A DNA stretch of 10,490 nucleotides, taken from positions 1 to 10,490 of the forward strand of contig RBNI01007262.1 in the NCBI GenBank assembly GCA_003990745.1. Reading direction: 5' to 3'. The position numbers were made by a program, and so were the translations under genes. The notes beneath the pieces were generated by a model. That model was given only the letters and a program-made list of their open reading frames with translations, did no database searches and was not told the origin of the DNA. Source of the stretch: Jimgerdemannia flammicorona (taxonomy: Eukaryota; Mucoromycota; Endogonomycetes; Endogonales; Endogonaceae). Within the stretch, counting starts at the first letter, position 1. The number at the start of each line of letters is the position of its first letter. Shown one piece after another: positions 1 through 10,490 of this stretch.

Positions 1-1150
1 TATTTTATTTTCATGGGTTATATATTGTGTCTGGCTATCTGCCTCGACAATAATATTTCCCTTTTTATTTATTTTATTTTCATGGGTTATATATTGTGTC
101 TGGCTATCTGCCTCGACAATAATATTTCCCTTTTTTATTTTTTTATTTTCATGGGTTATATATTGTGTCTGGCTATCTGCCTCGACAATATTTTTTCCCT
201 TTTTATTATTTTATTTCATGGGTTATATATTGTGTGTCTGGCTATCTGCCTCGGCAATAATATCTTCCTTTTTATTTTTTTATTTATTTTATTTTCATGA
301 GTTATATATTGTGTCTGGCTATCTGCCTTGGCAATAATATCTCCCTTTTTATTTATTTTATTTTCATGGGTTATATATTGTGTCTGGCTATCTGCCTCGA
401 CAATAATATTTCCCTTTTTATTATTTTATTTCATGGGTTATATATTGTGTCTGGCTATCTGCCTCGACAATAATATTTCCCTTTTTATTATTTTATTTCA
501 TGGGTTATATATTGTGTCTGGCTATCTGCCTCGGCAATAATATCTTCCTTTTTATTTTTTTATTTTTTTTATTTTCATTGGTTATATATTGTGTCTGGCT
601 ATCTGCCTCGACAATAATATCTCCCTTTTTATTATTTTATTTCATGGGTTATATATTGTGTCTGGCTATCTGCCTCGGCAATAATATCTTCCTTTTTATT
701 TTTTTATTTATTTTATTTTCATGAGTTATATATTGTGTCTGGCTATCTGCCTCGGCAATAATATCTCCCTTTTTATTTATTTTATTTTCATGGGTTATAT
801 ATATTGTGTCTGGCTATCTGCCTCGATAATAATATTTCCCTTTTATTATTTTATTTCATTGGTTATATATTGTGTCTGGCTATCTGCCTCGGCAATAATA
901 TCTTCCTTTTTTATTTTATTTTCATGAGTTATATATTGTATCTGGCTATCTGCCTTGACAATAATATTTCCCTCTTTATTTATTTTTTCATGGGTTATAT
1001 GTCATTCTCTTTTATTATTTTATTTTATGGGTTATATGTCATGTCTGGCTTATCTGCCGTGATGATTCTACCCTTTATTAATTTATTTTATTAGTTATAT
1101 TGTGTCTGGCTATCTGTTTTGGCAATTTTATCTCCTTTTATTACAGGTTA
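1..1150. repeat. AT-rich minisatellite, about 16 copies of a 67-77 base unit
   Basis: A core reading ATGGGTTATATATTGTGTC then TGGCTATCTGCCTCGACAAT, followed by a T-rich spacer, recurs throughout. The CTGGC of the core falls at 31, 100, 169, 238, 315, 384, 451, 518, 595, 662, 739, 810, 877, 942, 1045 and 1107, so spacing clusters at 67, 69 and 77 bases; the size classes come from T-rich spacer length. The last copies (about 960-1150) are the most diverged and one lacks the core. Several overlapping hydrophobic reading frames exist only because the unit has few stops. The array runs off the left edge. It may lie in the 5' region or a 5' intron of the gene at 1204. Confidence 0.97.
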
Positions 1151-1203
1151 ACTAACATATTAACCTTCTATCATTCTAATTATACAGATTATAACTGAAT
1201 CTG

Positions 1204-2398
1204 ATGTCAGAAAACTTGTGTTGCATATGCGGTCGTGGTGATCGAGTTTTTGAAACCTGCAATATTGTAGGATGCCTCAATATGATATGCATTGAGCATA
1301 ATGACAGCGATGAGAAATCACCACTCTGTGCTTCTGAAGTACCCGAAAATACATGGATATGTCCTATGCATAATCAGACTGGTGTCAGTATGATCATTTT
1401 AACCAGTTATATATATATATTATTATTATTCTAATTAGAAATTATCTCTTTATCAGGTTGGAATCAAGTATGATGCTAATATCAAAGTGGATATTCAGTC
1501 ATTGGAGTTTAGTGAAATAGCATGGAATGCTATCATGGGGCTGCAAATAGTACATTTGGAAAATACCGCGTAAGTGTTTATTTAGGGAGGGATGGGGGGA
1601 GGTTTGTAATATTATTATTATTAATTATTAATTTCATCCATTATTTATTTATATATATAAAGCAATGCCAAATATTCATCTATTTACATGTCTTTAATGG
1701 TGGCAACTCTCTTCAACAATGTATACAAGCTGGAGACTTTTGGTTTGAGCAAGATAGTGATGGGAACCCATGGTCACTTGCCAAAAGCATGGTAAGTAAT
1801 TTAATATATTTGTGTTCATATCTTTATAATTCATCTAAATCTAATTTGAATTGTAATTACAGTTTTTTGATGCTCTCTTCAAGTTGTCTGTATATAGTGA
1901 TATCAACCTCATCCTTCTCATCTGTGGTACTGTGATATATCCCAAAAATAATGACAAGGAACAAATATCGAATGCATATACATCAATTGTGGATATTATT
2001 CGAAGGTTAGTCTCTTCTGGAATTGTTGTTATACCTATATATACAATATCAACCATCTATATTGTTTTTATAGAGTTACTGTTGGCCATGCTTTACTATT
2101 CACTTGACATGATTTGGAGCCTGCCAGAATAGTACATGCTTTAATGCAGTCAATTGAAGGCTACGAATTCCAACACCTATCTCTTGTCGAATCGGTGACT
2201 GTAAGGTTCAATAGCCTTAATGAGGAAGATGGGACGCTAGTTTGGTGTCTAGAGGCAGGGCAGGGAACATATGTGCATCGAAAGGCAATGCCTTGCAGCA
2301 AACATCCTCGTGCACATAAACACCAGAACAAGTTTTGTATTGATATTGGAAAATATGAGGGTAAAACCTATGTTTCAGATGCAATGCACCTAGGGTAG
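1204..2398 (+). pseudogene. PHD-like zinc-finger protein gene, five exons, probably broken (frameshift plus in-frame TGA)
   Basis: Exons I can trace are 1204-1383, 1457-1569, 1663-1791, 1863-2005 and 2074-2398, joined by introns of 68-93 bases with GTCAGT, GTAAGT, GTAAGT and GTTAGT donors. Exon 1 encodes a PHD-like finger: CCIC, ETCNIVGC, MICIEH, then WICPMH, where the usual final CxxC is CxxH and the central HxxC is CxxH. Exons 3 and 4 read through in one frame (IFIYLHVF, GDFWFEQD, NLILLICGTVIYP). Two breaks are visible. In exon 2 the frame from the finger (VGIKYDANIKVDI) differs by one base from the frame entering exon 3 (NSTFGKYRQ), as if one A were lost near 1547-1550. In exon 5 a TGA at 2105-2107 interrupts one continuous frame (GHALLFT, then HDLEPARIVHALMQ). 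Using the acceptor at 2127 instead of 2073 removes the TGA in frame. The C-terminus (GTYVH, PCSKHPRA, DIGKYEGKTYV) recurs in the minus-strand copy at 7556-7952. The start is uncertain: acceptors at 1187 and 1210 could bring in an upstream exon beyond the minisatellite. Function unknown beyond the finger. Confidence 0.7.
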
Positions 2399-2684: not shown

Positions 2685-2956
2685 TCAATAAGAAACAGCT
2701 GAATTATATACTAGTGGTCTTGGACATGTTATATAACTCTTGACAATATATATTTACAGCAAAAGGTAGCTCTGTATCTCTGTTTATAGTTATTTGCTCA
2801 ACCATATTACAGAACTAAATTCTGCAGTTAGCTGTAGGCTGCAATTTTATAAGCTATTGAATATTGCTTCTGGTACAGTTGTGCATTATTTTCCATTTTA
2901 CGAATTTAATATCACCCCAAATGAGTCACCTGATCATGCGCCCAAACATAAATTCG
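2685..2956 (+). repeat. Direct duplication, left copy
   Basis: This stretch, starting at TCAATAAG and ending in AAACATAAATTCG, matches 3031-3342 base for base over most of its length, with scattered substitutions and small indels. Shared blocks include GACATGTTATA, CTTGACAATATATATTTACA, CTGCAGTTAGCTGTAGGCTG and GAGTCACCTGATCATGCGCC. Copies are offset by about 346 bases. No gene is visible in 2399-3280; the rest is AT-rich unique sequence. Confidence 0.93.
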
Positions 2957-3030
2957 GGGGGTCCAATGGCTAAATATTCACCATGTGTTTCTAATCTGAA
3001 TGGGTTAGGCCAACCCTGATCGTGTGCTAA

Positions 3031-3342
3031 TCAATAACGGCTGAATTATATATTGCAGTAAAATTAGAAGTAGTCTTGGACATGTTATAACTCTTGACAA
3101 TATATATTTACAGCAAAAGATAGCTCTGTATCTCTGTTTATAGTTAGTTTCTCAACCACATTACAGAACTATAATCTGCAGTTAGCTGTAGGCTGTAATT
3201 TTATAAGCTACTGAATATTGCTTCTGGTACAGTTATGCATTATTTCCATTTTACAAATTTAATTGTCACCCCAATGAGTCACCTGATCATGCGCCCAATG
3301 CATCACATGATCGTGTGCCCCTGTCACCCAAACATAAATTCG
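3031..3342 (+). repeat. Direct duplication, right copy with an extra motif unit
   Basis: Second copy of 2685-2956. It differs chiefly by about 33 extra bases between GCGCCC and AAACATAAATTCG, and that insert carries one more CATCACATGATCGTGTGCCC unit. It abuts the promoter of the FAR1-Ulp1 gene. Confidence 0.93.
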
Positions 3343-3385: not shown

Positions 3386-5742
3386 ATGGCCTCTAATATA
3401 CCACAACCGGGTCTCACCTTTGTAACATTTGAAGAGGCCCGTGAATTCATTGTTCGCTATACAATACAAACCAATGTCGAAATTATTCTTATAAATACAC
3501 TTAAGAGCAAACACAATGGCAGCTATCTCAAGGCAGCTTTCGCTTGCAAAAAGCAAGGCAAGTACGTCGGAAAAAAGGCAGAGTACACGACCACACGGAC
3601 CGGCTGCCCCTTTGTAATCAGGGTCAACTACAGAGCATCCTCTAAAGAATTTACAATAACTCAAACGAACCTGAATCACAATCATGAGCCTGCTGTCAAC
3701 CTCCCGGGGAAGGTAACGATAATGCCGATGATGGTGGAGACGCCAACCGAGATTGTAGAGACCATGGTGGAAGATAGGAAGACGTTAGATGACAAAAAGG
3801 TGGTGGAAGATAAGAAGATGTTAGATGGCAAGAAAGTGGAGAAGCAGACAATGATGTTAGATGATATGAAAGTAGATGAACAAGAACAAGACGATGACAC
3901 GTTCTTTGATGCTATCGGCAATCATGATGATAGAACTGTTATCCTATCTGTCTCTATGCACTCCACCACCAATGCATCCACCTCTGCTGCTGAACTCCCA
4001 ACCGAGATGCCTCCTACTGCCAATCTTTCATCTGCTGTACTCTCTACCAGTATCAACTCATGTGTAACAGAGATACCAATAGAACCCGAAAAGGTGAGAT
4101 GTTATTCAATTTGCAAAGTGGTAAAACATATTTCTACAGTATATTAATATTACCCATTTTAATTTAGTTGACAGTTGCAATTCCAAAATCGGTCAAACAA
4201 GTTTTTAAACAACTACCACACGAATTTCATTCTGGGTTTGCGGAGCTGATTGAGAAGGCAGCCACATATACTCTACAACATGGTAAACTACCCAGTTGGC
4301 CAGACAAAGCAATCGAACTCAAGGAGATCAAGTCTGGCCCTGAAACCCTACAGCCATGGATCAACCAACAAGATATCAATCGACTGAATGCTGGCGAGCG
4401 GCTAAATGATACTATAATAAATGGATATATTGAATGGTATATATTTAAGTGTTTATGTTTATTAAACTATATATATTATTGGGAATCTATCTGATTATTA
4501 TTTTTTTAGGTGCAGGGCTCAACAGCCATCTAACCAAGTTGCAATCTTCAATACACACTTTTTTTCTCTTCTAAGAAAAGACCCTACCAAATTGCTTGGA
4601 CGAAGCACTAATCCTCTCAAGACCAAATTTTCGTTGATTCCAGTCAATTGGGAAGGGTAAATATATTTAGATGTTTATTTTCTATCAGTAAAAGTATATA
4701 TAAAAATAGTCATTTATATTAACTAGATACTATCTATAATATCGCAGCATACACTGGTTCCTAGTAGCTCTTTGTAATATGCACTTGGTGCTTGATGCAA
4801 CTCTATCGGAGGATATATCACAAAGGTCAGTATTATTTTTTTGACATGTAATTATATGTACCAATACTTATATTAGATATTTTAAATATACAGACCTTTC
4901 ATTGCAATCTTGGACTCAATGAATAAAGATGTTCAACCACAAGTAATCGAACCCATCCTGGTATATCTGGAAACATTAGCTGAAGGATCATCTCAGATAT
5001 CAAACATTAGGACTACAGAAGTCATCATTGCTAAGGTATGGTATACTGATATATATAGAGTATAATACAATATTATATCAAACTGAGATATATAGTTATA
5101 TTATAGGTACCCCAGCAAAAAAATGGATTCGACTGTGGAGTATTTCTACTATATTTTACCGAAATATTTCTCTCTGCTCCTGAGTACTATTGCACAATTC
5201 TGCAGGTAACTATATCTACTATTAATACATATAATTTATTTTCAAACTGCTATATGAAAATTACTTCTAACTAATATATATATATATATATATTATAGAA
5301 AAATACAGATGCAAATGCATGGAAGGGGGAAATACCCATGTCTCATATGCGCACTCATGTTCATGATGTGATTCAGAAGCTGTCAACCCAATCTCATGCT
5401 GCTCAAAAACATGACATTTCTGGTCCATCTTCGCAAATTACCTCACTACCAAACCTCACCAAAGCGCTTGCAGAAGCATACAACAAAAGGATAACACAGG
5501 TATCATGTCCAAAAGATGAAGAAGAGAAGACTGAAGATATTATTCAAGGCAGGAGTAAGGCTACACCACCACCACCACCACAAGAGAGAATATCAAAACC
5601 TGAAGTCAAAACTATCCGATCAGCCAAATGCGCAGCTGGTACCAATGATGCCAAACGTCTAGCTGAAAATCTGGAGGATGAAAGGCCCAAACGTAAACGA
5701 ATTGCAAAGTTACAGACAAAGGAAGATGAAGACATCAATTGA
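3386..5742 (+). CDS. FAR1-type DNA-binding domain fused to Ulp1 (C48) cysteine protease
   Basis: Seven exons (3386-4093, 4168-4436, 4510-4656, 4748-4825, 4894-5035, 5107-5205, 5299-5742) join without a break into 628 residues; the six introns are 68-93 bases with good GTRNGT-type donors and YAG acceptors. Residues about 11-104 form a FAR1/WRKY-GCM1-type domain with candidate zinc ligands C54, C74, H98 and H100 (ACKK, TGCPF, NHNHEP). A Lys/Asp-rich repeated linker (128-172) and a Ser/Thr-rich stretch follow. From about 300 comes an Ulp1 domain: LNDTIINGYIEWC, then catalytic-type H377 (GIHWF), D408 (ILDSMN), Q451 (VPQQ) and C458 (FDCGVF). The C-terminal tail is polar with a basic nuclear-signal-like PKRKR at 611-615. 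Ulp1 enzymes remove or process SUMO-like proteins, so a nuclear, DNA-targeted deSUMOylase is a fair inference. The first ATG after the motif cluster is used; upstream of it the frame lacks another ATG. FAR1 domains derive from Mutator-like transposases, but no transposase core is present. The intact frame contrasts with the broken genes around it. Confidence 0.9.
3767..3900 (+). repeat. Degenerate coding repeat in the FAR1-Ulp1 linker
   Basis: Three to four diverged units of about 36-39 bases encode variations on E-D-(K/R)-K-x-L-D-x-K-K-V, giving a highly charged Lys/Asp/Glu spacer between the DNA-binding and protease domains. The repeat stays in frame, as expected for a linker under length but not sequence constraint. 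Confidence 0.75.
5273..5298 (+). repeat. (TA)n tract in the last intron of the FAR1-Ulp1 gene
   Basis: An alternating TA run of about 20 bases sits directly before the TATTATAG acceptor at 5298. It is a simple-sequence tract likely to vary in length and may stand in for the usual pyrimidine tract. Confidence 0.8.
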
Positions 5743-7555: not shown

Positions 7556-7952
7556 CTAATCTTGGTGTAGTACATCTACAACATAGCTTTTACCATCATA
7601 TATTCCAATATCTTGTTCTGGCTCGAGGATGTTATTGTCCAATGACATTTCGGGGTGCTTTACAATTAATGACCCTTACATTATGCACCGAATCGATGAC
7701 AAGACAACATTGACCTCTTTTGCAGGCTCGAGGGTGCTTGGTACATGGTTCATATATTCCATGTATATACGTACCCTCACCATCGATGAAAACCCACACG
7801 GGGCTATGAATAGTTCCTTGTATTGCTGCCCGAACAGACATCTGTAACAGTGTATTCGCAAGTTCGTGTTTCAAGATAGCTGTCATGATAGGATTGCTCA
7901 CATGTTGTAGCTCGATATTGCGATTTGCAAAGAGGATAACCTTCCCAACATT
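7556..7952 (-). pseudogene. Decayed paralogue of the C-terminal region of the gene at 1204-2398
   Basis: Read on the minus strand, 7952-7632 encodes NVGKVILFANRNIELQHVS, then VWVFIDGEGTYIHG, EPCTKHPRACK and CLVID, ending at TAA 7632-7634. This parallels LVWCLEAGQGTYVH and PCSKHPRAHK of the plus-strand gene. One base out of frame, 7672-7556 encodes VKHPEMSLDNN, then EPEQDIGIYDGKSYVVDVLH and TAG, parallel to DIGKYEGKTYVSDAMH and TAG. Nucleotide similarity continues past both stops (TTTAGCTATTGA). A frameshift between about 7672 and 7640 therefore separates two halves of one protein end. No PHD-like finger or middle region was found upstream on this strand. It may be the far end of a gene whose first exon is the H3-tail ORF at 8699, but the intervening 600 bases are mostly repeats. 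Function unknown. Confidence 0.65.
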
Positions 7953-8470
7953 TCAGATTGACTGGAGTATGCTTGAATCCAATTTCATGATAATATTTGC
8001 AGTTTAATGGGATGAGTCTTAAGAACACTTGTCAAAATGACTGGAGTTCGTCTCAAACCCAACTACAAATTGCCATCTGTCAAATTGACTGATGGGCAAT
8101 GAAATCGGCACAAAATAATATTGCAGTTCAATGGGATGAGGCTCAAGAACACCTGTCAAATTGACTAGAGTTCGCCTCAAACCCAACTACAAATTGCCAG
8201 ACTGATGGGCAATGAAATCGGCACAAAATAATATTGCAGTTCGATGGGATGAGGTATAAGAACTCCTGTCAAATTGACTGAGGACAATGAGAATGGCACC
8301 AATACCATAAAATCATCATGCCACAATTATGCTGGAGAGAAGTGTATGAAACACCTGTCAAATTGACTGGAGTTTCACCTCTGTCCACAATTTAGGCAGA
8401 ATCTCACCATGGCTTCTGTCAGATTGACTGAAGATGACGAGATGGTCATATAGCAATGTCAAATTGACTC
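7952..8470. repeat. Array of GTCAAATTGAC motifs within 124-base higher-order repeats
   Basis: A CTGTCAAATTGACTG core or close variant begins at about 7952, 8031, 8079, 8155, 8268, 8357, 8418 and 8458. Between 7975 and 8280 the longer unit is clear: TGCAGTTYAATGGGATGAG, AAGAACWCYTGTCAAA, GTTCG(T/C)CTCAAACCC, AACTACAAATTGCCA, GATGGGCAATGAAATCGGCA. One copy has lost 12 bases, including a core, at about 8199. The core is a near-palindrome (GTCAAATTGAC against GTCAATTTGAC). Minus-strand frames through it stay open for up to about 45 codons (VNLTGV, HPIELQYYFVPIS) and then stop, so a coding origin is possible but unproven. Confidence 0.85.
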
Positions 8471-8492
8471 TGCTGACCTTGATTGAACCCCC

Positions 8493-8518
8493 CCTTTTTT
8501 TTTTTAAAAAAAAAAAGG
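8493..8518. repeat. Perfect T11-A11 palindrome
   Basis: CC, eleven T, eleven A, GG form a perfect 26-base inverted repeat without loop. It separates the GTCAAATTGAC array from the H3-tail ORF. Homopolymers this long are also prone to sequencing length errors. Confidence 0.9.
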
Positions 8519-8576
8519 AGAGATTAAGTACCTTGTTATTATCTTTGTAGTATGGAGGGTTGACCTCAGTCTTCTT

Positions 8577-8699
8577 TCATTTAGATGGATGGGCAGCAGG
8601 AGGTGTCGGGCTGATGGGTCTTGTTTCGAGTAGCTTTAGGGGTTGGGTCATGGCATGGCCACCTGTCGACTTTTTTGCTGTCTGCTTTGTCTTCGCCAT
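8577..8699 (-). CDS. Short ORF encoding a histone H3 N-terminal tail mimic
   Basis: A 40-residue minus-strand frame begins MAKTKQTAKKSTGGHA. Against the canonical H3 tail ARTKQTARKSTGGKA this matches 12 of 15 positions; the changes are R2K, R8K and K14H, so T3, K4, K9, S10 and T11, the main modification sites, are kept. The likeness ends at residue 16; the rest (MTQPLKLLETR, PISPTPPAAHPSK) is Pro-rich and unrelated to the H3 core, so this is not a truncated histone gene. The ATG sits in a good context (ACAGAATGG) and is preceded by pyrimidine-rich leader sequence. It ends at TGA 8577-8579. It could be a free peptide, or the first exon of a longer protein joined by splicing to downstream minus-strand exons such as 7952-7556; no convincing donor before the TGA is seen. 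Role is inferred only: bait or decoy for H3-tail readers and writers. Confidence 0.7.
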   Translation of the reverse strand: MAKTKQTAKKSTGGHAMTQPLKLLETRPISPTPPAAHPSK

Positions 8700-9131: not shown

Positions 9132-9173
9132 GAATCTCCTGATCGTGCGCCCATACCACATGATCGTGCGCCC
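9132..9173 (+). repeat. Direct-orientation GATCGTGCGCCC motif pair
   Basis: CTCCTGATCGTGCGCCCAT and CCACATGATCGTGCGCCCTT follow each other 21 bases apart, in the same orientation as the left cluster at 3270. With the inverted pair at 9657-9716 they could bound a small element of about 600 bases. Confidence 0.8.
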
Positions 9174-9443: not shown

Positions 9444-9602
9444 TTACATCACTTAAGAAGAAACGGAAGCCTTATTGATGACCCAACAGTTCGGTATGCT
9501 ACTTTTCTTGAGCAACACAAGGTTCTTGGAAAATCCCAAGTTGATTACATATGTGCTCATCTGGGGATTTCTGCTAGATACCCTGTTGCTCGCAAAAAGT
9601 AG
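9444..9602 (+). other. Short open frame running through a foldback, possible exon remnant
   Basis: A 52-residue frame follows a good acceptor-like TTTGCAG at 9437-9443 and reads GSLIDDPTVRYATFLEQHK, VLGKSQVDYICAHLGIS, ARYPVARKK and TAG. The composition looks like genuine protein, but I recognise no family and there is no ATG near the front, so it would have to be a last exon or a captured fragment. The stretch before it (9174-9443) holds a 65-codon frame that I cannot support as a gene. Confidence 0.3.
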
Positions 9603-9621
9603 CATGCCAAACTGTTGGGTC
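9480..9621. mobile_element. 142-base foldback element with 38-base inverted arms
   Basis: The left arm at 9480-9517 (GACCCAACAGTTCGGTATGC, then TACTTTTCTTGAGCAACA) matches the reverse complement of 9584-9621 (GACCCAACAGTTTGGCATGC, then TACTTTTTGCGAGCAACA) at about 33 of 38 positions, around a 66-base loop. That is the form of a MITE-like or foldback element. The right arm is followed by a second GTTGGGTC. The immediate flanks show no clear target duplication. Confidence 0.6.
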
Positions 9622-9656
9622 GTTGGGTCATGGCGAAATAAATAATTCGATACTAC

Positions 9657-9716
9657 TTGGGCGCACAGTCATGTGATGGATTTGGGCACACAGTCATGTG
9701 ACTGATTTGGGTGTGC
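9657..9716 (-). repeat. Right, inverted CACATGA-GTGCGCCC motif cluster
   Basis: On the minus strand two 25-base units read AGTCACATGACTGTGTGCCC and ATCACATGACTGTGCGCCC, preceded by GCGCACACCC. They mirror the left cluster at 3270-3320 in order and spacing, about 6.4 kb away. Candidate opposite end of a transposable element. Confidence 0.65.
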
Positions 9717-10232: not shown

Positions 10233-10330
10233 GTGCAATGTAAGTCGTCTTGGCTAGTGTTTCGAGTTTTTTTTTTGGTCTCATGTGTATCGTGCTTAGG
10301 TTTACAATTCAATCGCCGTCTATTATAGAA

Positions 10331-10367
10331 GTCCAGTCCAGTCCAGTCCAGTCCAGTCCAGTCCAGT
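10331..10367 (+). repeat. (GTCCA)n pentanucleotide microsatellite
   Basis: Seven perfect GTCCA units pass directly into the CATCC array, suggesting the two arose from one another by substitution and spread. Confidence 0.97.
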
Positions 10368-10490
10368 CCCATCCCATCCCATCCCATCCCATCCCATCCC
10401 AACCCCATCCCATCCCATCCCATCCCAACCCCATCCCATCCCAACCCCATCCCATCCCATCCCATCCCATCCCATCCGATCCCATCCCAT
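10366..10490 (+). repeat. (CATCC)n pentanucleotide satellite, runs off the window
   Basis: About 25 units of CATCC, interrupted at regular places by CAACC variants (about 10401, 10426 and 10442) and one CGATC near the end. The minus strand is (GGGAT)n, which has G-quadruplex potential. It is not a standard TTAGGG telomere repeat. Confidence 0.97.

Follow-up and report, generated by a model that had tools for sequence, protein, structure and literature searches.

Most of the histone mimics known to us are short motifs found in viruses or in host enzymes. In influenza A H3N2 virus, the foreign protein NS1 shows the start of an H3 tail to chromatin proteins through an ARSK motif of four residues, located at the C-terminus without the free amino end of H3 (available excerpt of PMC10612106). 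The host protein BAZ2B has a histone-like linker that lowers H3 binding by its own PHD finger, as reported in the accessible part of PMC5663869. In Arabidopsis, the anti-silencing targets of VANC, a protein encoded by VANDAL transposons, are often tandem repeats that vary between related elements, and the portion of that report at hand does not mention an H3 mimic (PMC5735166). At the level of titles and abstract openings, the literature did not describe a transposon-encoded H3-tail mimic. Here we analysed a stretch of 10,490 nucleotides from the fungus Jimgerdemannia flammicorona (the window), in which a short ORF begins with a near copy of the H3 tail.

The preliminary description of this DNA had reported an ORF of 40 codons whose product starts like histone H3. 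This ORF exists at 8577..8699 on the minus strand (read from 8699 to 8577; translation MAKTKQTAKKSTGGHAMTQPLKLLETRPISPTPPAAHPSK, followed by a stop), and its resemblance to H3 was reproduced: 12 of the 15 residues after Met are identical, with Lys for Arg at positions 2 and 8 and His for Lys at position 14. Such a match is improbable by chance, as had been argued, since the top match to H3 among the 224,897 ATGs of 400 first-order Markov shuffles of the window reached 6/15. The ORF is not a whole gene. It is the truncated exon 1 of a longer gene, with its length set by a premature TGA (8577..8579, minus strand) at a codon that specifies Arg in copies C272a, C607b and C1768, which continue past codon 40 (...HPSKRRKT...) up to a GT donor. 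Because these sister copies splice on, a stand-alone gene of 40 codons was ruled out. In C470a, C2392 and C738, a stop is found at the same place as the TGA of the window.

Exon 1 of the window copy, which belongs to the A-type (the groups are given below), spans 8532..8699 on the minus strand, with the ATG at 8699, H3-like residues 1-16, a basic linker and a GT donor at 8531; its protein identity with exon 1 of C272a is 86% over 56 aa. On the same strand follow a remnant of intron 1, made of repeated units with TCAAATTGACTG (7953..8531), and the last exon, encoding the C-terminal region (7638..7952), which is stop-free inside and 85% identical to C607b over 105 aa. Exons 2-6, from the finger onward, were not found in 7953..8531, where no match to the finger or to exons 3, 4 and 5 was obtained. 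As its finger exon was not found, the window A-type copy is a pseudogene, of which exon 1, a piece of intron 1 and the last exon remain.

The window holds part of a second, B-type gene on the plus strand. A tandem array at 1..1143 (69 bp x 14.3, then 63 bp x 2.1) was read as its intron 1, and in loci L011 and L039 the same array separates exon 1 from the finger exon; exon 1 of this gene would fall beyond the contig end. Its finger exon (1188..1383), rich in Cys and His with PHD-like spacing, is 11 nt shorter near its start than that of C5768 and is therefore out of frame there, and exons 3-6 (1463..2398) are decayed, with a TGA in the last exon. The copies have their exons in a common order: exon 1 encodes the tail and the basic linker, a long first intron separates it from the Cys/His finger exon, and the exons after that end in a conserved C-terminal region. 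Spliced frames are open in C607b (377 aa), C1768 (378 aa) and C5768 (374 aa), while the spliced model of C272a contains one TAG. A-type models have 7 exons, with phases 0,0,0,2,0,2 equal in three copies, and B-type models have 6, with one intron fewer; proteins of the two types share about 38% identity. The complete protein of about 375 aa thus consists of an H3-like tail, a basic linker, a Cys/His finger and the conserved C-terminal region.

Beyond the tail, the protein does not resemble a histone, in agreement with the preliminary description: no H3 core was found behind the tail, the H3 genes sit elsewhere in the genome, and the histone fold core gave no Pfam or NCBIfam histone match in the four gene models, which also had no Pfam match above cut-off. 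A profile of exon 1 (9 rows) hit H3 tails among PDB entries (E 4.8e-9; best 60 of 134 matches), and phmmer with exon 1 of C272a retrieved the H3 N-terminal tail at E 0.0017. With a profile of the whole protein, the best 60 of 129 PDB matches were all H3, H3 variants, Cse4 or H3/CENP-A chimeras, with a best E of 0.0025, while the C-terminal region gave nothing convincing against the PDB (best E 0.56).

A PHD finger has eight metal ligands and a Trp two residues ahead of the seventh. An alignment of 10 rows of the family's finger shows seven invariant Cys/His positions, an eighth that is Cys in 8/10, and a nearly invariant motif W-x-C-P-x-H. Its metal-ligand types presumably differ from the C4HC3 of PHD fingers. 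Searched at E up to 10, the PHD family PF00628 matched 0/10 finger sequences, and a PF00628 search of the genome returned nine places, none of them a finger of this family; neither Pfam nor the profile search of the PDB nor an hhalign comparison with one PHD supports a PHD label. AlphaFold2 gave no usable fold for the finger exon of the window alone (pLDDT 43). As a separate observation, two of the nine PHD places are related genes with a canonical PHD (L057, 1091-1621, and L058, 609-1274, both minus strand; PF00628 at E 2.8e-10 for L057), located on contigs that also bear copies of the family (C272 and C2165), which makes them possible candidates for a reader partner. The L057 gene had a single match in an outside protein search, a Jimgerdemannia flammicorona protein identical to it over its last 92 residues. 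Part of this stretch recurs elsewhere in the genome, and the idea that the eight places concerned are all copies of the L057 gene was dropped.

Searching the fungus's own genome (134.8 Mb, 7754 contigs) with the 40 residues gave 13 matches including the window, eight of them at E <= 8.1e-9 and one (E 2.89) to a histone H3 gene. A degenerate-pattern search also returned 13, the window and the same H3 gene among them, and exon 1 of two other groups retrieved 18 and 14 matches, with the H3 gene among the 18. Altogether 30 exon-1 copies were read on 23 contigs and grouped by eye into A (9), B (7), E (1), C/F (5) and D (8); some C/F- and D-type matches were weak (E 0.16 to 0.39) and were included because the motif was present on reading. 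The nine A-type copies are the window, C470, C272, C607, C1768, C2392, C738, C3353 and a frameshifted one on C171. Exon-1 copies were found mostly by likeness to the tail, so that altered tails are under-counted; C5768 was found through later exons, yet carries the tail, and C788, also found through later exons, has no exon 1 or tail in the DNA examined there. The last exon alone gave 31 genome matches at E up to 0.001, with fragments and the two of the window counted in. Together, these copies form a dispersed, transposon-like gene family that may be mobile. The homologue search that the preliminary description had called for was thus successful within the genome, and no homologue was found outside it, either for exon 1 or for the alignment of the four models, in a set of 5.8 billion proteins.

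Within the D group, the codon for H3 residue 2 is TGA in L063, L064, L065, L067 and L068, TAA in L070 and CAA in C278 and L066, a pattern that would fit decay of an Arg codon via C-to-T and G-to-A change. Separately, the H3 gene of contig C6089 (L015, 589-687, minus strand) carries several Arg-to-His changes, with a CpG observed/expected ratio of 0.31 in L044, as if it had decayed by C-to-T mutation.

We then compared the tails, using 29 of the 30 copies, decayed ones included. After Met the common form is A-R-T-(K/R)-Q-T-A-K-K-S-T-(G/F)-G. Counts per residue out of 29 are K8 29, K9 28, S10 28, T11 28, T6 27, Q5 26, G13 25, T3 24, A7 22 and A1 20, while R2 (12), K4 (14, against 15 for R4) and F12 (21) mark the variable sites. 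The placement of the tail at the very N-terminus, as proposed from the ORF alone, is borne out by an ATG directly in front of it in 25/29 aligned copies. The double exchange of Arg for Lys could be extended to the family at position 8; Lys at position 2 is private to the window copy and its near twin C470a (2/29), the other A-type copies having R2. Similarly, His at position 14 is true of the window copy, and this position is not conserved across the family, being R in C272b, C2486a and C5768 and H, C, P or A in the other copies compared.

The way in which the tail is encoded shows that most of its residues have been maintained. In seven group representatives, A1, T3, Q5, T6, A7, K8, S10, T11 and G13 are constant (A1 in six, as C607a lacks the start), and each of these nine positions is written with two to four synonymous codons; the positions that vary are 2 (R/Q), 4 (K/R), 9 (K/T) and 12 (G/F). 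Over 11 tail codons, C272b and C607a differ by 10 synonymous changes and 0 replacements. Among tail pairs of the seven representatives, dS is saturated in 13/21 and dN is at most 0.20 in 21/21, and for the pair of open copies C607b and C5768 the tail has a dN of 0.26 and a dS of 1.60, compared with a dN of 0.66 for the gene as a whole. These comparisons show, at the level of codons, a tail under purifying selection, kept while the underlying DNA changed. The copies show the sequence hallmark of histone mimics: a short stretch resembling H3, conserved and beyond chance expectation, within a protein that is no histone. Because C272b, the closest of four members compared, shares 15/20 residues with H3 1-20, an old origin from an H3 gene is possible.

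The surroundings of the copies were also informative. A companion gene in the window (3386..5742, plus strand, exons joined manually) encodes two domains that score above cut-off, a FAR1 DNA-binding domain (PF03101) at E 2.2e-7 and, at E 4.5e-19, a SUMO protease domain of the Ulp1 type (Peptidase_C48, PF02902). FAR1 is a mark of Mutator-like elements, and the unit contains a FAR1-type DNA-binding protein, as a Mutator-like or other DNA transposon would. A FAR1-Ulp1 gene adjoins the mimic in 6/16 exon-1 stretches and in 0/9 other stretches, four of which extend exon-1 contigs. In L009, L010, L019 and L020 mimic and companion are arranged head to head, within about 0.8-1.4 kb of each other, and a facing orientation is seen in the window and L014. 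The window also contains six sites of TGATCGTGCGCCC against 0.07 expected, a number reached in 0/200 shuffles: three with one mismatch each upstream of the FAR1 gene (2931..3320, plus strand), two exact ones 441-474 bp upstream of the mimic ATG (9140..9173, plus strand) and a sixth at 9659. The core of TGATCGTGCGCCC recurs in 12/70 fetched loci, several of them mutually overlapping. In L037, a locus without FAR1 match, this core occurs six times, with six exact copies of GATCRTGCGCCC counted in 6 kb.

Tandem arrays behind exon 1 differ between groups, with units of 69 bp in the window, 68 bp in L039, 78 bp in L010 and 74 bp in L038; a second exon-1 copy in L039 is followed by an unrelated unit of 62 bp, and A-type copies have another unit. 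The CpG observed/expected ratio is 0.56 in the window and 0.61-0.81 in L009, L014, L016 and L017, with 0.93 at the H3 locus L049. Judged from these features of the DNA, the surroundings look like those of a silenced repeat family. Other elements were noted nearby. The window has a palindrome-like, MITE-like repeat at 9478-9630, 78% identical to its own reverse strand and present at many genome places, and arrays of the pentamers AGTCC and TCCCA at 10330-10490, up to the contig end. ORFs resembling a PDDEXK_9 nuclease and an AAA-ATPase occur beside A-type copies (L016, 6305-7129 and 7364-7813, minus strand; L018, 1-621, plus strand).

We propose, with about even confidence, that the mimic acts as a decoy that draws off the host's H3-tail-binding proteins, in an anti-silencing role. 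With an ATG directly before the tail in most copies and Ala as residue 1 in 20/29, loss of the initiator Met would leave the protein with a free N-terminus like that of H3. The protein would enter the nucleus, where its C-terminal part, the FAR1-Ulp1 partner or both may bring it to the tandem repeats of the element; there the exposed tail could occupy host proteins that bind the H3 N-terminus, and silencing of the element would weaken. Three points favour this reading: the anatomy of a repeat family, a SUMO-protease gene as companion, and the similarity to the variable tandem repeats targeted by VANC. The methyltransferase GLP contacts H3R8 extensively, while Dim-5 tolerates its loss, according to the accessible text of PMC2797608; with K8 throughout and F12 outside group A, the mimic may bind and yet be a poor substrate of some enzymes. 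The idea of mimicry by an accessory or mobile gene gains from the dispersed family and the purifying selection on codons; the window copy itself is a pseudogene without a finger exon. Several observations were counted against the decoy reading: at least 20/30 exon-1 copies are interrupted by stops or frameshifts or have lost their start; the sampling of exon 1 favours unchanged tails; position 4 is R in 15/29; the finger matches no PHD model; the family had no homologue in the outside protein search; T6I and A7V are found in C5768, although its frame is among the three open ones, and changed tails also occur in C738 (A1V, T6M, A7T), C2165 (A7T) and C2486b (K9T); 10/16 exon-1 stretches have no FAR1 gene within the DNA fetched; and no transposase was present among 10 ORFs picked. 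A broader conjecture, which we put forward only tentatively and consider somewhat unlikely, is that the two genes would constitute a counter-silencing module of eukaryotic mobile elements, in which an array-focused H3 mimic titrates readers and writers of H3K9 and the H3 N-terminus, the protease strips heterochromatin of SUMO, and subfamily-specific arrays serve as addresses.

Other explanations were weighed. That the tail is a chance resemblance or a piece of a broken H3 gene is exceedingly improbable and already contradicted, as shuffles reach at most 6/15 and the 30 copies use synonymous codons that differ between groups. A CpG-poor, partly changed H3 gene does exist on C6089, and 15/20 residues shared with H3 1-20 in the closest of four members would allow an old H3 origin; against this, the gene models have no histone match, and the match to the H3 gene on C5406 starts from Q5, preceded by an AG, at a point where the family is unbroken. 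A reading of the tail as no more than a nuclear-import signal taken over from H3 would be consistent with the import of H3 1-28 via Kap123, with the minor effect of K14R in yeast (excerpted in PMC5677370), with R14 in C272b, C2486a and C5768 and with SKRRKT in the linker of A-type copies. This explanation is weakened because Kap123 reads H3 K14 and K23 (PMC5677370), although K14R is minor and some copies have R14; position 14 is otherwise H, C, P or A in the copies compared. Moreover, T3, Q5, T6, S10, T11 and G13 are largely kept through synonymous change, and import would not be expected to need them. We consider it improbable.

Just as improbable, in our estimation, is a role of the tail as a substrate or sensor that H3 enzymes methylate, acetylate or phosphorylate and that then reports or recruits by its mark. 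Its model is influenza NS1, whose ARSK mimic is modified by H3 enzymes (PMC10612106, in part), and the retention of K9 and S10 (28/29 each) and T3 (24/29) among aligned copies would suit it. R4 in 15/29, K8 in 29/29 and F12 in 21/29 do not, nor does the extensive contact of GLP with R8, although Dim-5 tolerates its loss (PMC2797608). Somewhat better placed, and still unlikely, is an internal ligand: the family's Cys/His finger would bind its own tail or that of a neighbour, leading to auto-inhibition or head-to-tail assembly and no sequestration of host readers. Tail and a finger with PHD-like spacing do occur in one protein, and BAZ2B offers a precedent, its histone-like linker lowering H3 binding by its own PHD (PMC5663869, in part); here, however, neither Pfam nor an hhalign alignment to a single PHD identifies the finger as such a domain.

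If the decoy reading is right, it would provide a testable case of transposon counter-defence in fungi. A fungal family in which 13 H3-like residues at the N-terminus persist through synonymous change would show that chromatin is copied by repeats as well as by viruses, and its natural variants of the H3 tail (K8 in 29/29, F12 in 21/29, R4 in 15/29) could be used for probing the requirements of readers and writers.

Compared with histone H3 itself, the mimic shares 12-13 of the first 15 residues in three copies compared and the N-terminal position, but it differs by having no histone fold match, by K8 in place of R8, by F12 in 21/29 and by its gene structure. BAZ2B is similar in combining a histone-like peptide with a zinc-finger reader in one protein (accessible part of PMC5663869); unlike the mimic, it is a host protein, its peptide is an internal Lys-rich linker and no near copy of the N-terminus, and its PHD is a recognised domain. 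With VANC the family has in common an element-encoded protein and tandem repeats differing between related elements (excerpt of PMC5735166), and it is set apart, by Pfam search alone, through having no Pfam match above cut-off. Finally, like NS1, the mimic would be a foreign protein that presents chromatin proteins with the first residues of an H3 tail, but it would do so with about 13 residues at the true N-terminus, and it belongs to a repeat-borne fungal gene family.
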